A program made the position numbers and the translations under genes. 64,000 nt of DNA from an uncultured Acidobacteriia bacterium (GTDB lineage Bacteria; Acidobacteriota; Terriglobia; Bryobacterales; Bryobacteraceae): contig CAIVPR010000076.1 of assembly GCA_903907865.1 (NCBI GenBank), positions 1 through 64,000 on the forward strand, in the 5' to 3' direction. Of this stretch, positions 19,679 through 27,688 are shown piece by piece (position 1 is the stretch's first letter; each line of letters starts with the position of its first letter). The notes beneath the pieces are model-generated. The model saw nothing but the letters and a program-made list of their open reading frames with translations. It did not search any database and was not told the origin of the DNA.

Positions 19679-20377
19679 CTACGACTGCATCCCGGCCAAC
19701 TCCGCCAGATCGAGCCGCCCGGTATAGATCGCCATCCCCACCGCGCAGTGGATCCCCATCGCTTCCAGCGCCTGGATGTCCTCTACGGTCGTAATGCCGC
19801 CTGCCGCGGTGATTTCCAGATCCGTCGCGGCGCGCAGGCTCCGGAACCACTCCAGATCCGTGCCCTGCATCATCCCTTCCTTGTCCACATACGTGCACAG
19901 GAAGCCCGAGCAGTACTGCTCCAGATGCTTCACCACTTCGACCGCCGTGAAGTCGGTCGATTCCCGCCAACCCTTCACCACAATCTTGCCATCCTTGGAA
20001 TCCAGCGCCAGAATCACGCGGTCGCGTCCCACGGCGTCGATGAGGTTCTTCAGGAAACCCTGGTTGGGCCCATTCGGTCCGAACGCCGCCGTTCCCACGA
20101 TCACCTTGAACGCGCCTTGGTCGAGCAGCGCCTCGGCACGTTCGACCGTCCGGACGCCGCCGCCCACGCGGATGGTCGCCTTGGCCGCCAGCATCTCCAC
20201 CAGACCGTCGTTGCTGCCCTTGCCGATCGCTGCGTCGAGGTCGATCACTTGGATCTGCGGAAATGCGGCGAACTTGGCCAGCATCTCGTCCGGACTGTCG
20301 CCCTCAAGCGCCTTTTCGCGTCCTTGGACGAGCTGGACGACCTTGCCGTCCATCAAATCAATACAGGGAAGAATCAA
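19679..20377 (-). CDS. hisA: ProFAR isomerase (histidine biosynthesis)
   Basis: 232 residues; isomerises ProFAR to PRFAR in histidine synthesis. It is a TIM barrel with the two phosphate-binding halves VGGGVRTV and AAGGITTV, and catalytic Asp at the start (PCIDLMDGKVVQL) and in ALDSKDG. The start is TTG (20375-20377), because the frame reads TTG-ATT-CTT-CCC with no ATG nearby. It is the last gene of the his operon, 19 bases after hisF. Confidence 0.95.
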   Translation of the reverse strand: MILPCIDLMDGKVVQLVQGREKALEGDSPDEMLAKFAAFPQIQVIDLDAAIGKGSNDGLVEMLAAKATIRVGGGVRTVERAEALLDQGAFKVIVGTAAFGPNGPNQGFLKNLIDAVGRDRVILALDSKDGKIVVKGWRESTDFTAVEVVKHLEQYCSGFLCTYVDKEGMMQGTDLEWFRSLRAATDLEITAAGGITTVEDIQALEAMGIHCAVGMAIYTGRLDLAELAGMQS

Positions 20378-20396: not shown

Positions 20397-21164
20397 TCAA
20401 TTACTGCTGGCTCGAACAGGGATGCCCGCGCGGTCGAGGTGTTCCTTCAAGTCCGCCACCGTATAGGTCCCGTAATGGAATACTGATGCTGCGAGGGCGG
20501 CGTCGGCTTCACCTTCTGTCAGCACTTCCAGAAAATGGTCCAAAGTGCCCGCCCCGCCCGAGGCGATCACAGGGATCCGGGTGGCGCGCGAAACGGTGCG
20601 GGTGAGCTCGCAGTCGAAGCCCGTTTTTACGCCGTCGGCGTCCATGGAGGTAAGCAGGATTTCGCCCGCGCCCAGTTCCTCGCCCTTGGCGGCCCATTCG
20701 ATGACGTCAATCCCCTCGTCCACGCGGCCGCCCTTGGTGAAGACGTGCCAGCCTCCGCCCGAATGGCGACGGGCGTCGATGGCGAGGATTACGGCCTGCG
20801 CGCCGAACTCCTGGCTCAGCTCCGAGATCAACTCGGGACGGCGCACGGCGGATGTGTTGACGGAAACCTTGTCGGCACCCGACATCAGGATTCGGCGCGC
20901 GTCGGCGATGGATGTAATGCCCCCGCCAACAGACAGCGGGATGAAGACCTTGCGCGCAGTGCGCAAAACGACGTCGGCCATGGTGGCTCGGTTGTCGCTG
21001 GAGGCGGTGATGTCGAGAAAGACGATCTCGTCGGCTCCCTGCTGGTTGTAGCGGTCGGCCAGTTCGACGGGGTCGCCCGCGTCGCGGAGGTCCACAAAGT
21101 TGACGCCCTTGACCACGCGGCCAGCGGTGACGTCGAGGCAGGGGATGATTCGTTTTGCCAGCAT
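20397..21164 (-). CDS. hisF: Imidazole glycerol phosphate synthase, cyclase subunit
   Basis: 255 residues; with HisH it turns PRFAR and ammonia into imidazole glycerol phosphate and AICAR. It has the HisF landmarks [20 protein letters not shown] (catalytic Asp11), SVGGGI, the second catalytic Asp in LLTSMDADG, and ASGGAGT for phosphate. The ATG is four bases after the hisH stop. The length is typical for the family. Confidence 0.96.
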
Positions 21165-21168
21165 GACG

Positions 21169-21777
21169 TTATAGCTCCACGAAGTTCTTCACGATCGCGA
21201 GGCCGAGAGGGCCCGACTTTTCGGGGTGGCACTGCACGCCGAAGACGTTTCCGGATTCCAGGACCGCCGTGTAAGGGATTGAATATGTGCAAGTTGCAGC
21301 GGTTTGTTCAACCACCGGTACATAGTAGCTGTGGGCGAAGTAGACGTGCGGCTTCAAGGGCAATCCGGCAAGAAGACGGGACGGGCGGACCAAATCCAGT
21401 TCGTTCCAGCCCATGTGCGGGATGCGTGCTCCAGGATCCATGACTGCGGGGTCGAAGCGCTTCACCACGCCCGGGAAGATGGCGAGTCCACGTTGCTCCG
21501 GTGCCTCCTCGCTGGATTCGAACAGGCCTTGCAACCCCAAACAGATGCCGAGAAACGGCACTCCGGCGGCGATCCGGCCCAGCAGTGCGTTGCGGACGTC
21601 CATTTCGTCCAGCGCGCCCAGCATTTGGCCGAAGTGGCCCACGCCGGGGAGGATGATTTTCGTTGAGCGTTCCAGCTCGGCGGCGTCGCGGACCAGTTCG
21701 TAGGTTGCACCGATTTCGTCGAGCGTGTTCTGGACGGAGCGGAGGTTCCCGGCCCCGTAGTCAAATATCCCGATCAC
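21169..21777 (-). CDS. hisH: Imidazole glycerol phosphate synthase, glutaminase subunit
   Basis: 202 residues from the GTG at 21775-21777, which overlaps the hisB stop as GTGA. It is a class I glutamine amidotransferase that feeds ammonia to HisF. The oxyanion region PGVGHFGQM, the nucleophile in LGICLGLQ (Cys79) and QCHPEKSG with the catalytic His and Glu are all present. Upstream in-frame codons would add 27 residues of shadow of hisB; the GTG gives the usual [11 protein letters not shown] start. Confidence 0.96.
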
Positions 21778-22370
21778 AACAGACCTTTCGTGGAGGGCAG
21801 TTGGTCCTTCAGGCGCTCGTCGGTGGAGCAGGCGTAGCGCATGGCGCGGGCCCAGCATTTAAAGATCGCTTCCAGCTTGTGGTGGTTGGAGCGCCCGTAC
21901 ATGATTTTGGCGTGGAAGTTGGCTCCGGCGTGGACGACAAAGCCGTCGAAGAAGTCGGGGACGAGCTCGGATTGCAGATCGCCGACCAGCCGAACACGCA
22001 CCAAGTCCTTGTAGACCAGCGCCGGGCGGCCGCCGAGATCGACGGCGACGACGCACAGCGTCTCATCCATCGGCAGCACGAAGTAGCCTGCGCGGTTGAT
22101 CCCGACGCGGTTGCCGAGAGCCTTGGCGAAGAGCTGGCCCATGACGATGCCGGCGTCTTCGACAGTGTGGTGCTGGTCGACGTCGAGGTCGCCCGTGGCC
22201 TTGAGGGTGAGGTCGAAGCCGCCGTGCTTGGTGAAAAGCTCCAGCATGTGGTCGAGGAACCGGATGCCGGTAGAGATGTCGTACTTGCCGGTACCCTCGA
22301 TGGTGAGGTGGCCGTAGATCTGGGTTTCTTTTGTGTCGCGCTGGATCTCAGCGGTTCGCGGATTAGACAA
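21774..22370 (-). CDS. hisB: Imidazoleglycerol-phosphate dehydratase
   Basis: 198 residues; dehydrates imidazole glycerol phosphate to imidazole acetol phosphate. It is monofunctional, without the N-terminal histidinol-phosphatase domain found in enteric HisB. The manganese-binding histidine motifs are there: [24 protein letters not shown] and the later [10 protein letters not shown]. The start is TTG (22368-22370), overlapping the preceding stop as TTGTCTAA. The missing phosphatase domain fits with the HAD gene just upstream. Confidence 0.96.
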
Positions 22371-23034
22371 GGGCGGCCTCCAAAGTATTGATATCGGGCA
22401 GGATCGCCACAGCGCCCTGCTCGTTCAGCAGCCGGACCACCTCGTCATAGCGGGAATTGTGGGGTTCTACGATGCCGATAAACGGTACTCCGGCTGCGCG
22501 ACCAGCCTTGGCATCGTCGACGGTGTCGCCGATGTACCAGCAGCGGCCGTGGGGCACGGTCTCGCGGATCTTGATCAGGCCTTCGGGGTGCGGCTTGGGG
22601 TTGGCGACCTTGTCGACGCCGATGATGGGGTCGAACGGGACGGTGGTGAAGCGGTCGAGCGTCAACTGCGCCTCCCAATTGAGGCGACCGGTGAAAACGC
22701 CGAGGGTGTGTTTGGCGGCGAGGGATTCCAAGGTGCCGGGATTGGCGATCCAACGCTCCTTGAGGATTAGCCCATTCGAGCCGTCGCCGTGGAAGATCTC
22801 TTGGAACTTGGTCACGACGTCGCCGAATCGGACGTCGCCGCCGAGCCCGGTGATGAACTCGTAGGACAGCTTCCAATCGTCGTTGTAGCCGCCCTTGTTC
22901 TTCCAGTCCTGAATTTCGGGGCGGGTGGGAAGGTAGCCGGTGAAGTGGTGGATTGTGGCCTGGATGGTGGCGCGGTAGGATTCGGCCACGTCCACCAGGA
23001 CGCCGTCCATGTCGAATACGATCAGGTCTTTCAA
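22363..23034 (-). CDS. HAD phosphatase, candidate histidinol-phosphatase
   Basis: 223 residues of HAD subfamily IA. Motif I is [10 protein letters not shown] (Asp8/Asp10), motif II is GVFTGR, motif III lies near ANPKPHP, and motif IV is [12 protein letters not shown]. It resembles the TIGR01548 type, which is often found inside his operons. Since hisB here lacks a phosphatase domain and no other phosphatase is in the operon, removal of phosphate from histidinol phosphate is the likely job; this is inferred from context. It starts with TTG overlapping the hisC stop as TTGA, and its TAA overlaps the hisB start by eight bases. Confidence 0.85.
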
Positions 23035-24110
23035 GATTGCGGACTCCAGATTGCGATGAGTTCCTCGACGACGCGGGCGGCCTGCTCGGGGGTCCCGGCG
23101 GTGATGCGGACGCCGCCAGCGATTTCGTAGCTACGGTCGCGGACGAGGATGGCCTTGTCCCGTAGACGGTCGCGGACTTCGATAGCGCGGTTGCCGAAAT
23201 AGCCGAGGATGAAGTTGGCGCCCGACGGGGCGTATTGGATGCCGAGGTTTTCCAAGCCCTCCCGGATCATGGCGCGTGCTCGGAGCGCCCCGGCGACGTA
23301 GTTGGCGACGTAGTCGGTGTCGGCGACAGCGGCTTCCGCAGCGAGCGCGGCCATCGAGTTCACGCTGTAGGGCGATTGCGCCTTGTGGAGGAACTGGACG
23401 TTGGCGGCTTGCGAAAACATGCAGCCCATGCGCATGGCGGCCATGCCGTAGACCTTGGAGAATGTGCGGCTCACGAAGAGGTTGGGGTAATGGCCGATCA
23501 GCCGCAGTGCGGTGACGCCGTGGAATTCAAAGTATGCCTCGTCGATCAGCACGGCGGACTGCGGTGCCGCCTGCAGGAGTTGCTCAATTTCCGCAATGCC
23601 GACTGCGGTGCCGGTCGGATTGTTGGGGTTGGCGACGAGGATGGCGCGGGTCTTCGGGGTGATGGCCCCGATGAGTTCGGCGAGGGGGAAATCGAGGTTC
23701 GGCGGGGGCCCGAAGCCGACTTCGACGACCTTCGCCCCGGCAACCTCGGCGTAGAACCGGTACATGGCGTAGGACGGGCGGAGGGTCAGGACCTCGTCGC
23801 CGTCGTCGACATAAGTGTTGACCAGGACTTGGATGGCCTCGTCGGTGCCGTTCGAGAGCAGCATTTCGTCCGGCGAAACGTGGAAGAAGTCGGAGAGGGT
23901 GCGCTTGACGGAGGTGTAGTCGGGGTAGACGGACAAGCCTTCGGAAGTGAGTTTCTCCCGCAGGAACGCGAGGACGCCTGGCGAGCAGCCGACGGTGTTC
24001 TCGTTGAAATCGAGGCGCATCTTCTCGATGCGGTTGCCCGTGGGCGGGTGGTAGGGGGCCATCGCCTGGACTGCGGGACGGGGCGTGGGGTTAGGCAAAG
24101 CGTTACCCAA
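23031..24110 (-). CDS. hisC: Histidinol-phosphate aminotransferase
   Basis: 359 residues; a fold-type I PLP aminotransferase that makes histidinol phosphate. Family marks are MRLDFNENTVGCSP, LLSNGTDEAIQVL, VANPNNPTGT, the Asp-x-Ala-Tyr segment IDEAYFEFHG and the PLP lysine in SRTFSKVYGMAAMRMG. The frame opens with a TTG (24108-24110) overlapping the hisD stop as TTGGGTAA. An ATG 17 codons on (MAPYHPP) is a possible alternative start but would lose coupling. Confidence 0.95.
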   Translation of the reverse strand: MGNALPNPTPRPAVQAMAPYHPPTGNRIEKMRLDFNENTVGCSPGVLAFLREKLTSEGLSVYPDYTSVKRTLSDFFHVSPDEMLLSNGTDEAIQVLVNTYVDDGDEVLTLRPSYAMYRFYAEVAGAKVVEVGFGPPPNLDFPLAELIGAITPKTRAILVANPNNPTGTAVGIAEIEQLLQAAPQSAVLIDEAYFEFHGVTALRLIGHYPNLFVSRTFSKVYGMAAMRMGCMFSQAANVQFLHKAQSPYSVNSMAALAAEAAVADTDYVANYVAGALRARAMIREGLENLGIQYAPSGANFILGYFGNRAIEVRDRLRDKAILVRDRSYEIAGGVRITAGTPEQAARVVEELIAIWSPQS

Positions 24111-25344
24111 GCCTCACCTCCACCGACCGCGCATGCGCCTCCAACCCTTCGGCGCGGGCCAGTGTCGTCACCGACGGAGCCAGTCCCTCGAGCGCCGTCC
24201 GGTCCAACTGCTGCACCGAAATCACCTTCACATAGTCCGCAGCCGACAACCCGCCCCGCAGCCGCGCGACGCCGCTGGTCGGCAGCACATGGTTTGGCCC
24301 CGACGCGTAGTCCCCCGCCGCCTCCGGGCTGAACGCCCCCACAAACACCCCGCCGGCATGCCGGATCTTCGGCAGCAACTCCTCGTGGTGGATCGAAAGG
24401 TGCTCCGGCGCGAACCGGTTCGAAAGCTCGACGGCCTCGTCGAGCGAATCGACCACTAGGATCGCCCCGTTGCGGTCAATCGACTCCCGCGCGACATCGG
24501 CAGTCGTCAGCGTCTCCAACTGCCGCTCGATCTCCAGCGCGACTCTTTCCGCCAACACCCGCGAAGTCGTTAGCAGGATCGCCGAAGCGTCCGTGTCATG
24601 TTCCGCCTGGGCCAGCATGTCGGCGGCGAGGAACTTCGGATCGGCATCGGCGGCGATGATCAGGATCTCCGTCGGTCCGGCCACAAAATCAATCCCAACC
24701 TCGCCCGCCAGCAGCTTCTTGGCCGCCGCGACGTAGATATTGCCCGGCCCGACAATGCGGTCCGCGCGCGGTACGGTCTCGGTTCCGTAGGCGAACGCGG
24801 CCACCGCCTGCGCCCCGCCCATCTGGAAAACATGGTGCGCACCAAGGATGTGCGCAGTCCCCCAAACCTCGTCCACCGGTTTCGGGCAGGCCACGCAAAC
24901 GTTCGGCACGCCCGCCACCAACGCCGGAACCACGGTCATGATCACTGTAGAGGGCAGGGGATACCGACCGGCAGGCACATACGCGGCAACCGTGTCGAGA
25001 GGCCGCACCAACTGGCCCAGCCGATGTCCGGGCCCGAGCTCAATGGAACTCTCGCGCGGCAATTGAGTCTGCGCGAAGCGCCGTACATTGTTCGATGCCA
25101 CTTCCACGGCGCTGCGGAACTGTGCGGTCAACCGGTCCGCCGCGGCTGCGATCTCGCCACGCTCCACCGCGACCGCCTTGCGATCCAGCTTGTCGAACTT
25201 TCGCGCGTATTCCATCAGACCGGCGTCGCCACGGGTGCGGACGGCTTCGAGGATCGGATGGACGACCGCCTCGGCGTCCGTCATCTGCGCGGCGCGGCGG
25301 GCCAGCACCTGGCCCATGTCTTTGGATTCGAGGATGCGGATCAT
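24103..25344 (-). CDS. hisD: Histidinol dehydrogenase
   Basis: 413 residues; the zinc- and NAD-dependent last enzyme of histidine synthesis. Landmarks are VAAYVPAGRYPLPSTV, NIYVAAAKKLL, DFVAGPTEIL, the catalytic Glu-His pair in RFAPEHLSIHHEE and GPNHVLPTSGVAR. It is the first structural gene of the operon. Its ATG (25342-25344) lies 13 bases past the terminator hairpin that follows the histidine-rich leader peptide, so its transcription depends on read-through. Confidence 0.96.
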   Translation of the reverse strand: MIRILESKDMGQVLARRAAQMTDAEAVVHPILEAVRTRGDAGLMEYARKFDKLDRKAVAVERGEIAAAADRLTAQFRSAVEVASNNVRRFAQTQLPRESSIELGPGHRLGQLVRPLDTVAAYVPAGRYPLPSTVIMTVVPALVAGVPNVCVACPKPVDEVWGTAHILGAHHVFQMGGAQAVAAFAYGTETVPRADRIVGPGNIYVAAAKKLLAGEVGIDFVAGPTEILIIAADADPKFLAADMLAQAEHDTDASAILLTTSRVLAERVALEIERQLETLTTADVARESIDRNGAILVVDSLDEAVELSNRFAPEHLSIHHEELLPKIRHAGGVFVGAFSPEAAGDYASGPNHVLPTSGVARLRGGLSAADYVKVISVQQLDRTALEGLAPSVTTLARAEGLEAHARSVEVRLG

Positions 25345-25357
25345 ATGGGTTTACGGC

Positions 25358-25391
25358 AATAAAAATGCCCGCCGTCCGAGCGGCGGGCATT
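25358..25391 (-). terminator. Attenuator terminator of the his operon
   Basis: On the minus strand a perfect ten-base stem AATGCCCGCC (25391-25382) / GGCGGGCATT (25373-25364) with an eight-base loop is followed directly by TTTTTATT. It lies between the histidine-rich leader frame and hisD, 26 bases after the leader stop. Its 5' arm can instead pair with CGACGGGTAT (25435-25426) near the end of the leader frame (nine of ten positions, one G-U), which would break the terminator. Confidence 0.88.
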
Positions 25392-25417
25392 CGTTCCTGT
25401 TCCACTGCAAAACCGAA

Positions 25418-25501
25418 TCAGGCCGATACCCGTCGAGACCCCGTCGCGAGGTGGTGCACATGCACCCGATGCCCGTGATGGAGGACTGAGGTTACCGCCA
25501 T
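25418..25501 (-). CDS. hisL: his operon leader peptide
   Basis: A 27-residue frame from the ATG at 25499-25501 to the TGA at 25418-25420. Residues 8, 9, 11, 14, 16 and 17 are histidine, six within ten codons, using both CAT and CAC. GGAGG stands three bases before the ATG; that spacing is tight but usable. It is followed by a strong terminator and then hisD. This is the arrangement of transcription attenuation known from enteric his operons: starved ribosomes stall on the His codons and free an antiterminator segment. The peptide itself has no other expected role. It is too short for ordinary gene calling. Confidence 0.85.
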   Translation of the reverse strand: MAVTSVLHHGHRVHVHHLATGSRRVSA

Positions 25502-25552
25502 GAACCTCCAGTGTACCAAGAGGGTTTCGGACTATGCGACAATCATGCCCAG

Positions 25553-27688
25553 ATGTCCCAGATGTACAAGAACACCCGGCTAGCCCCCATCGTCCAGGCA
25601 ATCGGCACCGCGATCCTCTGTTCCATGCTCCCCGCCCAAACCCGCCTCCAATACCCCACAGCCCCCACGACCAACCAGGTGGATACCCTCCATGGCGTTC
25701 CAGTGGCCGATCCCTATCGCACTCTGGAGGACGCCGACGCCGAGGGTACACGCAAGTTCGTGGAGGAACAGAGCGCCCTCGCACTCGGTTTCCTGGCCAA
25801 AGTGCCGGGCCGCGAGGCCGTGAAGGCCGAACTGACGAAACTGTGGGACTACGAGCGGTTTTCCGGCCTGTCCAAAGCCGGGGGGCACTACTTCCAGAGG
25901 TACAACTCCGGCCTGCAGAACCAGGCCGTCCTGCAAGTGCTTGACAGCGTCGACGGCACGCCCCGCGTCCTGCTCGACCCCAATACCTACCGCAAAGACG
26001 GTACCGCCGCGCTCAACGGCGTCAACATCAATTGGAACGGCAAGCTGATGGCATACGCCGTCGCACAGGCCGGTTCCGACTGGGAGGAATGGCGCGTCCG
26101 CGACATTGAAACAGGCACGGACCGCGACGACCTCATCCAGTGGAGTAAAGTCGGCAGCGTCGCGTGGGCCCCGGACGACTCCGGTTTCTACTACTCCCGC
26201 TTCCCGGAACCACCCAAGGGGCAACTGCTCACGGTTTCCGCGACCGACCAGAGGATCTATTTCCACAAGTTGGGCGACCCGCAGTCCGCAGACAAGCTTG
26301 TGTACGGGCGGCCCGGAAAGTCGCAGTGGACATTTGGCACCCAAGTGCTGCAAGGCGCTAGTTATGCCATTTTCTACGGCCTTCCAGGCGAGCCGGGCAA
26401 GAACACTCTGGCGTTCCAAGACCTACGGGACCCGGGGGCGAAGATCCTCGACCTGATCGCGACGCCTGAAGCGGGCTACGACGTGATTGAAGCCGCCGAC
26501 GGGAGAATCTACGTCGCAACCACGGACCACGCGCCGAAGGGCCGCATTGTTGCCATCGATCCCGCCCATCCGGCGCGCGCGAATTGGAAGGAGGTCGTGC
26601 CGGAGGGCAAGGATACTCTGGAAGGCGCGCAAATGGTGGGTCGTCGCTTGGTGCTGGAGTACATGCAGGACGCCCACGCCGCAGCCCGAATCGTGGATTT
26701 GAACGGCAAACTGGTGGCCGACGTCGTGTTGCCTGGAATGGGAACCGCGGCTTGGTCACGCACCCGACTGGGCGACGCGGAAGTTTTCTATAGTTTTACG
26801 GGCTTCACCATCCCGCCCAGTTACTACAAACTGGATGTCGCGACGGGCAAGAGCACCTTGGTGCGGCGTCCCAAGGTGGCTTTCGACCCCTCGGCCTACG
26901 AAACGACACAGGTTTTCTACCCGAGCAAGGACGGGACCAAGATTCCGATGTTCCTCAGCCACAAGAAGGGGCTGAAGCTGGACGGCAAGAACCCGACGAT
27001 TCTCTATGCCTACGGCGGATTCAACATCTCGGTCACGCCGTCGTTTTCGCCCGCCTTGGTGGAATGGATGGCGATTGGAGGGGTGTACGCGTCGGCGAAC
27101 CTGCGCGGCGGGTCGGAGTACGGCGAGGCGTGGCACGAGGCAGGCATGAAGTCGCGCAAGCAGAATGTGTTCGACGATTTCATCGCGGCGGCCGAGTGGC
27201 TGATCAAGAACAAGTACACCTCGACGCCGAAGCTCTGCATCTACGGGGGAAGCAATGGCGGCTTGCTGGTGGGCGCGGTGTTGAACCAGCGACCTGAGCT
27301 GTTCGGCGCGGCGATGCCCGCGGTCGGAGTGATGGACATGCTGCGGTTCCACAAGTTCGGCTTCGGCATGCAGTGGGCGCAGGAGTACGGGTCACCGGAC
27401 AACGCGGAGGACTTCAAATACCTGAACGCCTACTCGCCGCTCCACACGATTCGGAAGGGTGCACAATACCCGCCCGTCCTGATCACGACGGCCGACCACG
27501 ATGACCGCGTGATGCCCGGCCATAGCCTGAAATACGCCGCCGCGCTGCAGAAGGCGCAGGAGGGTCCGGCACCGATTCTGTTGAGGGTGGATGTGAGAGC
27601 TGGACATGGGGCTGGCAAGCCGACTGCGAAGGTGATCGACGAATGGGTCGACCGGTTCGCGTTCTTGAAGACGGCGTTGGGGATGTAG
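25553..27688 (+). CDS. Secreted prolyl oligopeptidase (S9A)
   Basis: 711 residues from the ATG at 25553. A signal peptide (IVQAIGTAILCSMLPAQ) is followed by the S9A layout: YPTAPTTNQVDTLHGVPVADPYRTLED, a seven-bladed propeller, and the alpha/beta hydrolase domain. The catalytic Ser567 is in GGSNGG, the acid lies in TADHDDRVMPGHS and His685 is in AGHGAGKP. It cleaves short peptides after proline and here is exported. It diverges from the his operon; its own -10-like GACAAT lies nine bases before the ATG. An earlier in-frame GTG at 25511 would spoil the signal peptide. Confidence 0.94.
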   Translation: MSQMYKNTRLAPIVQAIGTAILCSMLPAQTRLQYPTAPTTNQVDTLHGVPVADPYRTLEDADAEGTRKFVEEQSALALGFLAKVPGREAVKAELTKLWDYERFSGLSKAGGHYFQRYNSGLQNQAVLQVLDSVDGTPRVLLDPNTYRKDGTAALNGVNINWNGKLMAYAVAQAGSDWEEWRVRDIETGTDRDDLIQWSKVGSVAWAPDDSGFYYSRFPEPPKGQLLTVSATDQRIYFHKLGDPQSADKLVYGRPGKSQWTFGTQVLQGASYAIFYGLPGEPGKNTLAFQDLRDPGAKILDLIATPEAGYDVIEAADGRIYVATTDHAPKGRIVAIDPAHPARANWKEVVPEGKDTLEGAQMVGRRLVLEYMQDAHAAARIVDLNGKLVADVVLPGMGTAAWSRTRLGDAEVFYSFTGFTIPPSYYKLDVATGKSTLVRRPKVAFDPSAYETTQVFYPSKDGTKIPMFLSHKKGLKLDGKNPTILYAYGGFNISVTPSFSPALVEWMAIGGVYASANLRGGSEYGEAWHEAGMKSRKQNVFDDFIAAAEWLIKNKYTSTPKLCIYGGSNGGLLVGAVLNQRPELFGAAMPAVGVMDMLRFHKFGFGMQWAQEYGSPDNAEDFKYLNAYSPLHTIRKGAQYPPVLITTADHDDRVMPGHSLKYAAALQKAQEGPAPILLRVDVRAGHGAGKPTAKVIDEWVDRFAFLKTALGM

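Follow-up and report, generated by a model that had tools for sequence, protein, structure and literature searches.

A probable ribosome-mediated histidine attenuator, with a probably almost leaderless leader mRNA, before hisD in an acidobacterial genome

We identified, in front of hisD in the window (the whole 64,000-nucleotide stretch of DNA that was analysed), an element that we take, with a probability of about nine in ten, to be a ribosome-mediated attenuator of histidine biosynthesis, composed of four compact segments in a trp-like arrangement and with a leader mRNA that would start at the leader ATG or within ~3 nt of it (Table 1). The elements observed in the DNA are a short frame with its histidine codons, a terminator and a promoter-like element, together with their conservation among relatives and the complementarity of the segments over a set of leaders. 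The best HisD relatives came from uncultured Bryobacterales, Bryobacteraceae, Candidatus Solibacter and MAGs labelled Acidobacteriia, and we read the window as belonging to Bryobacterales (Acidobacteriota).

Table 1. Features of the putative attenuator, the histidine operon and its neighbour, in window positions unless a contig is named
Feature	Position	Strand	Evidence or detail
Extended -10 element TGG-TACACT, 8 nt before leader ATG, putative promoter	25510..25518	-	Sequence and conservation; TACACT at 25515-25510
GGAGG, likelier a spacer between -10 and transcription start than a ribosome site	25505..25509	-	3 nt from ATG
Histidine leader peptide frame MAVTSVLHHGHRVHVHHLATGSRRVSA	25418..25501	-	27 codons plus TGA, six His codons; ATG 25501-25499, TGA 25420-25418 (window sequence)
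Putative regulatory His codons	25451..25480	-	Two at 25480-25475; 25471-25469; 25462-25460; two at 25456-25451
Hairpin 1:2 joining the first and the last leader codons and enclosing the His codons, possible protector	25424..25497	-	MFE
Putative antiterminator strand, segment 2, last leader codons, CGACGGGTAT	25426..25435	-	Complementarity to terminator arm
Intrinsic terminator stem-loop, segments 3 and 4	25364..25391	-	Fold -22.7 kcal/mol, z -4.8
T-rich tail of terminator	25358..25365	-	Window sequence
hisD, first operon gene	24103..25344	-	TIGR00069, 492 bits, cutoff 244
hisC-like aminotransferase	23031..24110	-	TIGR01141, 272.4 bits, just under cutoff 276.6
HAD-IA hydrolase between hisC and hisB	22363..23034	-	TIGR01548 116.5 bits (cutoff 140.2); TIGR01549 over cutoff
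hisB	21774..22370	-	NF002111 over cutoff
hisH	21169..21858	-	TIGR01855 over cutoff, from residue 29 of listed frame
hisF	20397..21164	-	TIGR00735 over cutoff
hisA-like	19679..20377	-	TIGR00007 189.9 bits (cutoff 229)
Prolyl oligopeptidase-like gene	25553..27688	+	Divergent; best NCBIfam oligopeptidase B, far below cutoff
Other His leader of the window's genome, ahead of hisI-hisG, MAANLHFHHHGSSCSHTGDVRRVLS	G000:C112:11295-11451	-	L067, L162, L166

A 27-codon frame with six histidines had been proposed by the initial annotation and was borne out by our reading of the minus strand, on which His occupies leader codons 8, 9, 11, 14, 16 and 17. The layout on this strand is TGG-TACACT, 8 nt, ATG, 27 codons, TGA, 26 nt, terminator, T-rich tail, 13 nt and hisD; the observation of a His leader and a terminator before hisD is real. 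A detector that looked for a frame of 12–32 codons with at least four His in 12 codons and, no more than 110 nt further on, a T-tailed hairpin returned one candidate on the two strands of the whole window. Applied to the upstream regions of 66 leader-bearing loci (235,955 bases per strand), it returned 66 candidates on the forward strand, where they were present by selection, and none on the reverse strand; judged by these counts, the arrangement of His leader and terminator is not a chance pattern.

The operon genes were named by NCBIfam family matches and cutoffs, and hisC and hisA are the best names for the corresponding genes although both score below their cutoffs. The HAD-IA hydrolase encoded between hisC and hisB is a candidate histidinol-phosphate phosphatase; relatives often have a gene-sized gap at that place. 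Among the genes scanned, none received the name hisE or hisN. On the other side of the leader, the prolyl oligopeptidase-like gene adjoins the leader promoter and has, by eye, a signal-peptide-like start; it is not beside hisD in the congeneric genomes G015 and G018.

The terminator described by the initial annotation as a perfect 10-bp stem with a U-run is present, with a somewhat longer stem: we counted 11 Watson-Crick pairs plus a closing G-U (25391-25381 with 25374-25364). None of 200 shuffled sequences folded as well. The tail ends at 25358, 13 bases before the hisD ATG (25344), as had been stated, so that an intrinsic terminator lies between the leader and the first structural gene. Its GC-rich stem is of a common type, and in principle it could simply mark the 3′ end of a neighbouring gene and precede hisD by chance. 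We give this almost no credence, since the upstream prolyl oligopeptidase-like gene (start near 25553) is divergent, so that no gene ends at the terminator, and the leader lies between the two.

The conserved promoter-like element suggests how the leader mRNA begins. In the 61 leaders that offer no second in-frame ATG, on which the spacing was counted, a TANNNT motif is separated from the downstream ATG by 8 nt in 37 cases and by 9 nt in 16 (53/61 together), no other spacing occurring more than four times, and TGNTANNNT is found at the -10 position in 47. A -35/-10 consensus scan found no promoter at the leader, and the reading as an extended -10 element is founded on its conservation across leaders. 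At the usual distance between a -10 element and the transcription start, the 5′ UTR would be 0–3 nt long here. Given that the extended -10 box lies 8–9 nt before the ATG in most leaders, the leader mRNA is probably leaderless, or almost so; since the first T of TANNNT lies 14–15 nt before the ATG, a 5′ UTR of up to ~3 nt is just as probable as none. Matches to the Shine-Dalgarno (SD) sequence of at least 4 nt precede 9 of the 80 distinct leaders and 281 of 1,600 random positions, so that, besides the placement of the -10 element, SD-like matches not above random agree with a leaderless mRNA. The GGAGG before the ATG, taken by the initial annotation for a ribosome site, is unlikely to be one, and we rejected that reading: it sits between the -10 element and the ATG, and it is the sole SD-consensus match of at least 5 nt among the 80 leaders, with no such match in the other 79.

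A TANNNT motif ~10–12 bp upstream of the start marks leaderless genes, and such genes were detected in three of three Acidobacteria genomes, according to the part of that study available (PMC3160421); the acidobacterial leaders fit this signature, but with the first T at 14–15 nt before the ATG. Spacers in a broader set from the phylum are similar (27 loci with a terminator: 9 nt in 12, 8 in 7, 10 in 3, 6 in 3, 7 in 1 and 11 in 1) and are weaker evidence, because the starts in the 29 loci of that set were chosen partly by the -10 element. A leaderless start need not apply to all acidobacterial his leaders, since in two loci of family f7 (L205 and L220, in G042 and G072) AAGGAG precedes the ATG of a His leader (ILHHHHGIS) that stands before a hisD-like gene. 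The leader of these two loci is apparently an SD-led version.

The initial annotation had proposed a His-codon leader that chooses between terminator and antiterminator before the his operon, a proposal that the comparison with relatives strongly supports. From the sequence features we infer the transcription start, translation, ribosome stalling, readthrough and response to histidine, as follows. Transcription would begin just past the extended -10 element. With ample charged His-tRNA, the ribosome would reach the stop codon and cover segment 2, in the last codons, leaving segment 3 to pair with segment 4, and transcription would end before hisD. When charged His-tRNA is scarce, the ribosome would stall in the His codons, covering segment 1 and opening hairpin 1:2; segment 2 would then be free to pair with segment 3, and this antitermination would allow RNA polymerase to continue into hisD-hisC-HAD-hisB-hisH-hisF-hisA. 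The least certain step of the scheme is that hairpin 1:2 would promote termination when the leader is not translated.

The proposed pairing of 25435-25426 with 25390-25381 at nine of ten positions holds, with one A-C mismatch and one G-U pair. In the window copy alone, the pairing of leader tail and terminator arm is no better than that of shuffled tails (p 0.48), and the leader folded as far as the arm does not stand out either (z 0.36). Whole-leader fold energies are likewise unremarkable. As judged over the leader set, the predicted 2:3 pairing, which excludes the terminator, is backed by the relatives and not by the window copy alone. Against mononucleotide shuffles of the tail, it reaches p<=0.05 in 56 of 80 leaders, and in 45 of these 56 the pairing ends at most 4 nt from the stop codon; in the broader phylum set the same level is reached in 20 of 27. 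Swapping the arms among the 80 leaders weakened the mean pairing from -19.1 to -17.3 kcal/mol (sd 0.25), and none of 5,000 permutations was as good as the native combination, a result that, like that of the head/tail swaps given below, may be inflated by the relatedness of the leaders. In a slide control, 80.8% of cells were paired natively and 34–48% when slid.

Individual leaders show changes on both sides of the 2:3 pairing: L155 has TAGCGG with CCGCTA, and CAGCGG/CCGCTG in L187 and L197 corresponds to CGGCGG/CCGCCG in L180, L193 and L200. In L113, L124 and L152 the tail fits its own changed arm no better than consensus arms. The window's strand, CGACGGG, is present in 25 of the 80 leaders, and in 22 of them, including the window, it is opposite CCCGCCG with an A-C mismatch; in L154 and L156 a CCCGTCG arm restores the pair with this A. 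We considered the latter as a two-sided change and rejected it as one-sided, since CGACGGG is common opposite CCCGCCG too. Alignment-based covariation within the order gave a negative count, with nothing beyond shuffles (108 of 500 reached the native pairing and 181 of 500 the covariation score), and is uninformative there because the terminator arm is nearly invariant; the arm-swap test was introduced after this result.

Equilibrium folds were computed with a ribosome, assumed to shadow 14 nt, placed on the last His codon. In the window leader, the arm would then be paired upstream (-21.1 kcal/mol) at a stage when the 3′ arm has not yet been made; the terminator hairpin has -20.8 kcal/mol by itself. 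The arm is likewise paired upstream in 61 of the 80 leaders. Full-length MFE folds without a ribosome contain the terminator in 71 leaders and the antiterminator in 9. The absence of covariation beyond shuffles within the order and the unexceptional 2:3 pairing of the window would also be compatible with attenuation at the His codons that dispenses with a 2:3 antiterminator, hisD being controlled by the position of the ribosome alone or by translation coupling. We regard this as quite unlikely, as native tail/arm complementarity beats both swaps and slides over the set, and the intrinsic terminator is strong and carries a T tail.

Hairpin 1:2, which is absent from the initial annotation, may guard against readthrough of an untranslated leader, as the folds suggest. 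The native combinations of head and tail in 78 leaders had -17.7 kcal/mol vs -15.6 kcal/mol when swapped, the native value being matched in none of 5,000 permutations; 23 of the 78 pairs are individually significant (p<=0.05), and the window copy alone does not beat shuffles (p 0.18). When the RNA is folded only as far as the arm and without a ribosome, tail–arm pairing is seen in 38 of 80 leaders and head–tail pairing in 43. The role as a protector is uncertain, given the 23 individually significant pairs and an arm that still pairs with the tail in those 38 nascent folds. The MFE structure of the G010 leader has hairpin 1:2 with the His run as its loop; that of the window leader encloses the His codons within the hairpin, where they are partly paired.

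The arrangement of the his genes was compared among congeneric genomes. The genes hisI-hisG-hisD are contiguous in 13 of these genomes (G001, G002, G004–G011, G013, G016 and G017), all with a His leader before hisI; G014 has hisG-hisD at a contig edge, G012 a hisD fragment only, and G003 no hisD match. The hisI leaders often read ...HHHHH...RRVL*, followed by GAAAGGACGCCCGCCG...CGGCGGGC and a T run. In the window's genome (G000), G015 and G018, hisI-hisG is on another contig than hisD. As we read these contigs, the operon of the window clade is split, with the window's copy serving the hisD half, and a separate leader is, or was, present before each half. The second leader of the window's genome stands before hisI-hisG, downstream of a gene that is presumably lptB. 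The two leaders of this genome are 77% identical, within the range of 74–79% between the hisD leader and the hisI leaders of other congeners, for which reason we consider that the hisD leader is, by sequence, a relative of the hisI leader; the three hisD leaders (window, G015 and G018) are 84–95% identical to each other. As to the different gene order that the initial annotation had noted, most relatives have hisI-hisG-hisD behind the leader, and a leader directly before hisD was found, among the loci checked, in the window clade only, apart from the distant hisD-like L205 and L220.

The hisI regions of G015 (L060, C55) and G018 (L063, C335) retain the -10 element and the terminator and have lost the start codon and the His run. 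This is a natural loss of an attenuator at one half of a split operon. Such copies do decay, and the hisD copy could likewise be a decaying relic, regulation being exerted by the hisI copy: the His run of the window is interrupted (HHGHRVHVHH), where relatives have HHHHH, and its 2:3 and 1:2 pairings are individually no better than chance. We nevertheless hold this to be unlikely. When the hisD contexts of G015 and G018 are aligned with the window, the six His codons at the same positions, the frame, start and stop, the -10 element and the terminator are kept in all three species in spite of other codon changes and of two third-base changes in the His codons of G015, and the window terminator is strong. 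G015 and G018 are the two relatives found with the same split, and in neither are the His run and the terminator before hisD missing, the outcome that would have spoken against the initial annotation.

Leaders of this kind are widespread in Acidobacteriota. In the loci fetched by HisD (the best 80 of 580 relatives), a His frame and a terminator precede his genes in 66, the next his gene being hisI in 65 and hisD in one; the strict detector called no leader in 14, of which six begin in hisG, so that the leader region lies outside the sequence. In L157–L159 and L161, where hisG is missing from hisI-hisD, there is no leader. No leader could be read before the hisI-hisG-hisD genes of L092 and L132, of which L132 retains a -10-like element and L092 shows no leader trace. 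In L101 the -10 element and the terminator are still present around a truncated leader, most of which is gone, and in L146 a leader is seen by eye with an imperfect terminator. Three of 24 further hisI regions (G015, G018 and G019) are without a leader. The 80 loci, 24 hisI regions and three hisD leaders (107) gave 80 distinct leaders after removal of 10 exact duplicates and of the 14 loci and three hisI regions without a candidate. Four loci from records labelled Acidimicrobiaceae, Ferrithrix or Acidimicrobium (L143, L154, L156 and L160) have the same kind of leader before hisI-hisG-hisD, with the CCCGTCG arm. If the record labels are right, this suggests that the operon was transferred together with its attenuator.

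A covariance model (A1, R1) built from 58 of the 80 leaders matched the window's genome strongly at two places, one ahead of hisI-hisG and one ahead of hisD; both copies had been in its training alignment, and the next best match there scored 22 bits. Matches at E<=0.001 were found in 178 of 200 genomes of the order, a count of model matches as such that includes some training members; of the 22 genomes without a match, 20 were listed, seven of which belong to family f3. Other f3 loci are also without a leader. A match is not proof of a leader, as the hisI region of G019 (L054) has a match, a -10-like element and a terminator but has lost the His frame. In the phylum, 113 of 396 genomes had matches at E<=0.001. 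This figure counts bare terminators as well and is no clean number of leaders, because only 28 of 38 hand-picked weaker matches (E 9.8e-8 to 6.3e-4) passed a test for at least four His in 12 codons and a downstream his-gene match, itself weak in some cases (e.g., L238); 19 of the 20 strongest passed, and 9 of the other 18. Some of the weaker matches stand before hisG or hisD, with other terminators, and a model trained on the order will miss diverged leaders. Leaving aside the window's genome, each of the 29 best phylum matches has a His-rich leader with hisI next (two from the same family, one of which, L178, is a training member, 14 from the same class and 13 from elsewhere in the phylum). 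On these comparisons, the window element is related to the one before hisI-hisG-hisD across Acidobacteriota. We see an even chance that leaderless four-segment His attenuators are ancient and phylum-wide and were inherited with hisI-hisG-hisD, that they moved with this operon between Acidobacteriota and actinobacteria resembling Acidimicrobiia, and that the splitting of the operon doubled them, leaving one genome with two separately tunable copies.

The 80 distinct leaders contain 459 His codons (252 CAT and 207 CAC), 25.5% of all residues. This mixture of codons in one frame argues against a T-box, riboswitch or protein-binding leader in which the His frame would be a coincidence, as does the Rfam search, with no match at gathering level in the window, no match to His_leader (RF00514) or the T-box up to E 10, and no T-box or riboswitch among the three matches at E<=10 in the region. 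T-boxes do control his genes in other bacteria, as excerpts of PMC9413887 describe; we nonetheless consider such a leader very improbable here, and retain ribosome-mediated attenuation.

Attenuation of this type was said by the initial annotation to be mostly proteobacterial and new in this setting. Its occurrence outside Proteobacteria is not new in itself, because leader-peptide attenuation of his and hisS is described in Firmicutes in the available parts of two articles (PMC9413887, PMC2965389); the acidobacterial lineage does look new. Among the papers listed by our literature search we recognised none on an acidobacterial his attenuator; an earlier prediction may be contained in a broad survey of attenuation (Lopatovskaya et al., 2010, Mol Biol 44:128), for whose histidine cases the accessible part of PMC4833913 names gamma-proteobacteria and Firmicutes only. 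For Actinobacteria, according to an excerpt of PMC1262725, conserved RNA structures were not seen in front of histidine operons. The combination and the lineage look new, and the parts are known, since, as far as the accessible text of these sources goes, Firmicutes his attenuators (PMC9413887) and leaderless attenuators (PMC7298713, PMC11857589) exist. By sequence evidence, a textbook mechanism would be extended to a large and little-studied phylum. At least 80 distinct and diverged leaders without a matching Rfam model allow start mode, length of the His run and pairing to be compared, and the split operon, with leader copies kept or lost in sister species, offers a natural experiment on regulation after an operon is broken.

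Among known systems, the enteric his leader (RF00514) is similar in having a His-rich leader peptide, a terminator and an alternative pairing before a his operon. The leaders of the window type differ from it in their compact four-segment build, whose first hairpin falls within the frame, in standing before hisI-hisG-hisD or hisD, and in being predicted to be leaderless; the fold of the enteric leader is longer than the compact acidobacterial one. Leaderless ORFs encoding polycysteine, which Canestrari, as cited in PMC13236596, is said to have reported in mycobacteria in 2020, concern another amino acid and another phylum. The his and hisS attenuators of Firmicutes are likewise outside Proteobacteria, in another phylum and with other genes, and the excerpts of their descriptions mention no acidobacterial case or leaderless start (PMC9413887, PMC2965389). 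Similar in their start mode, although for other amino acids and in other phyla, are trpL of Sinorhizobium meliloti, whose leader frame is also at or near the RNA 5′ end according to the part of the article available (PMC7298713), and ilvBNC of Corynebacterium glutamicum, discussed as a leaderless mRNA in an excerpt of PMC11857589.
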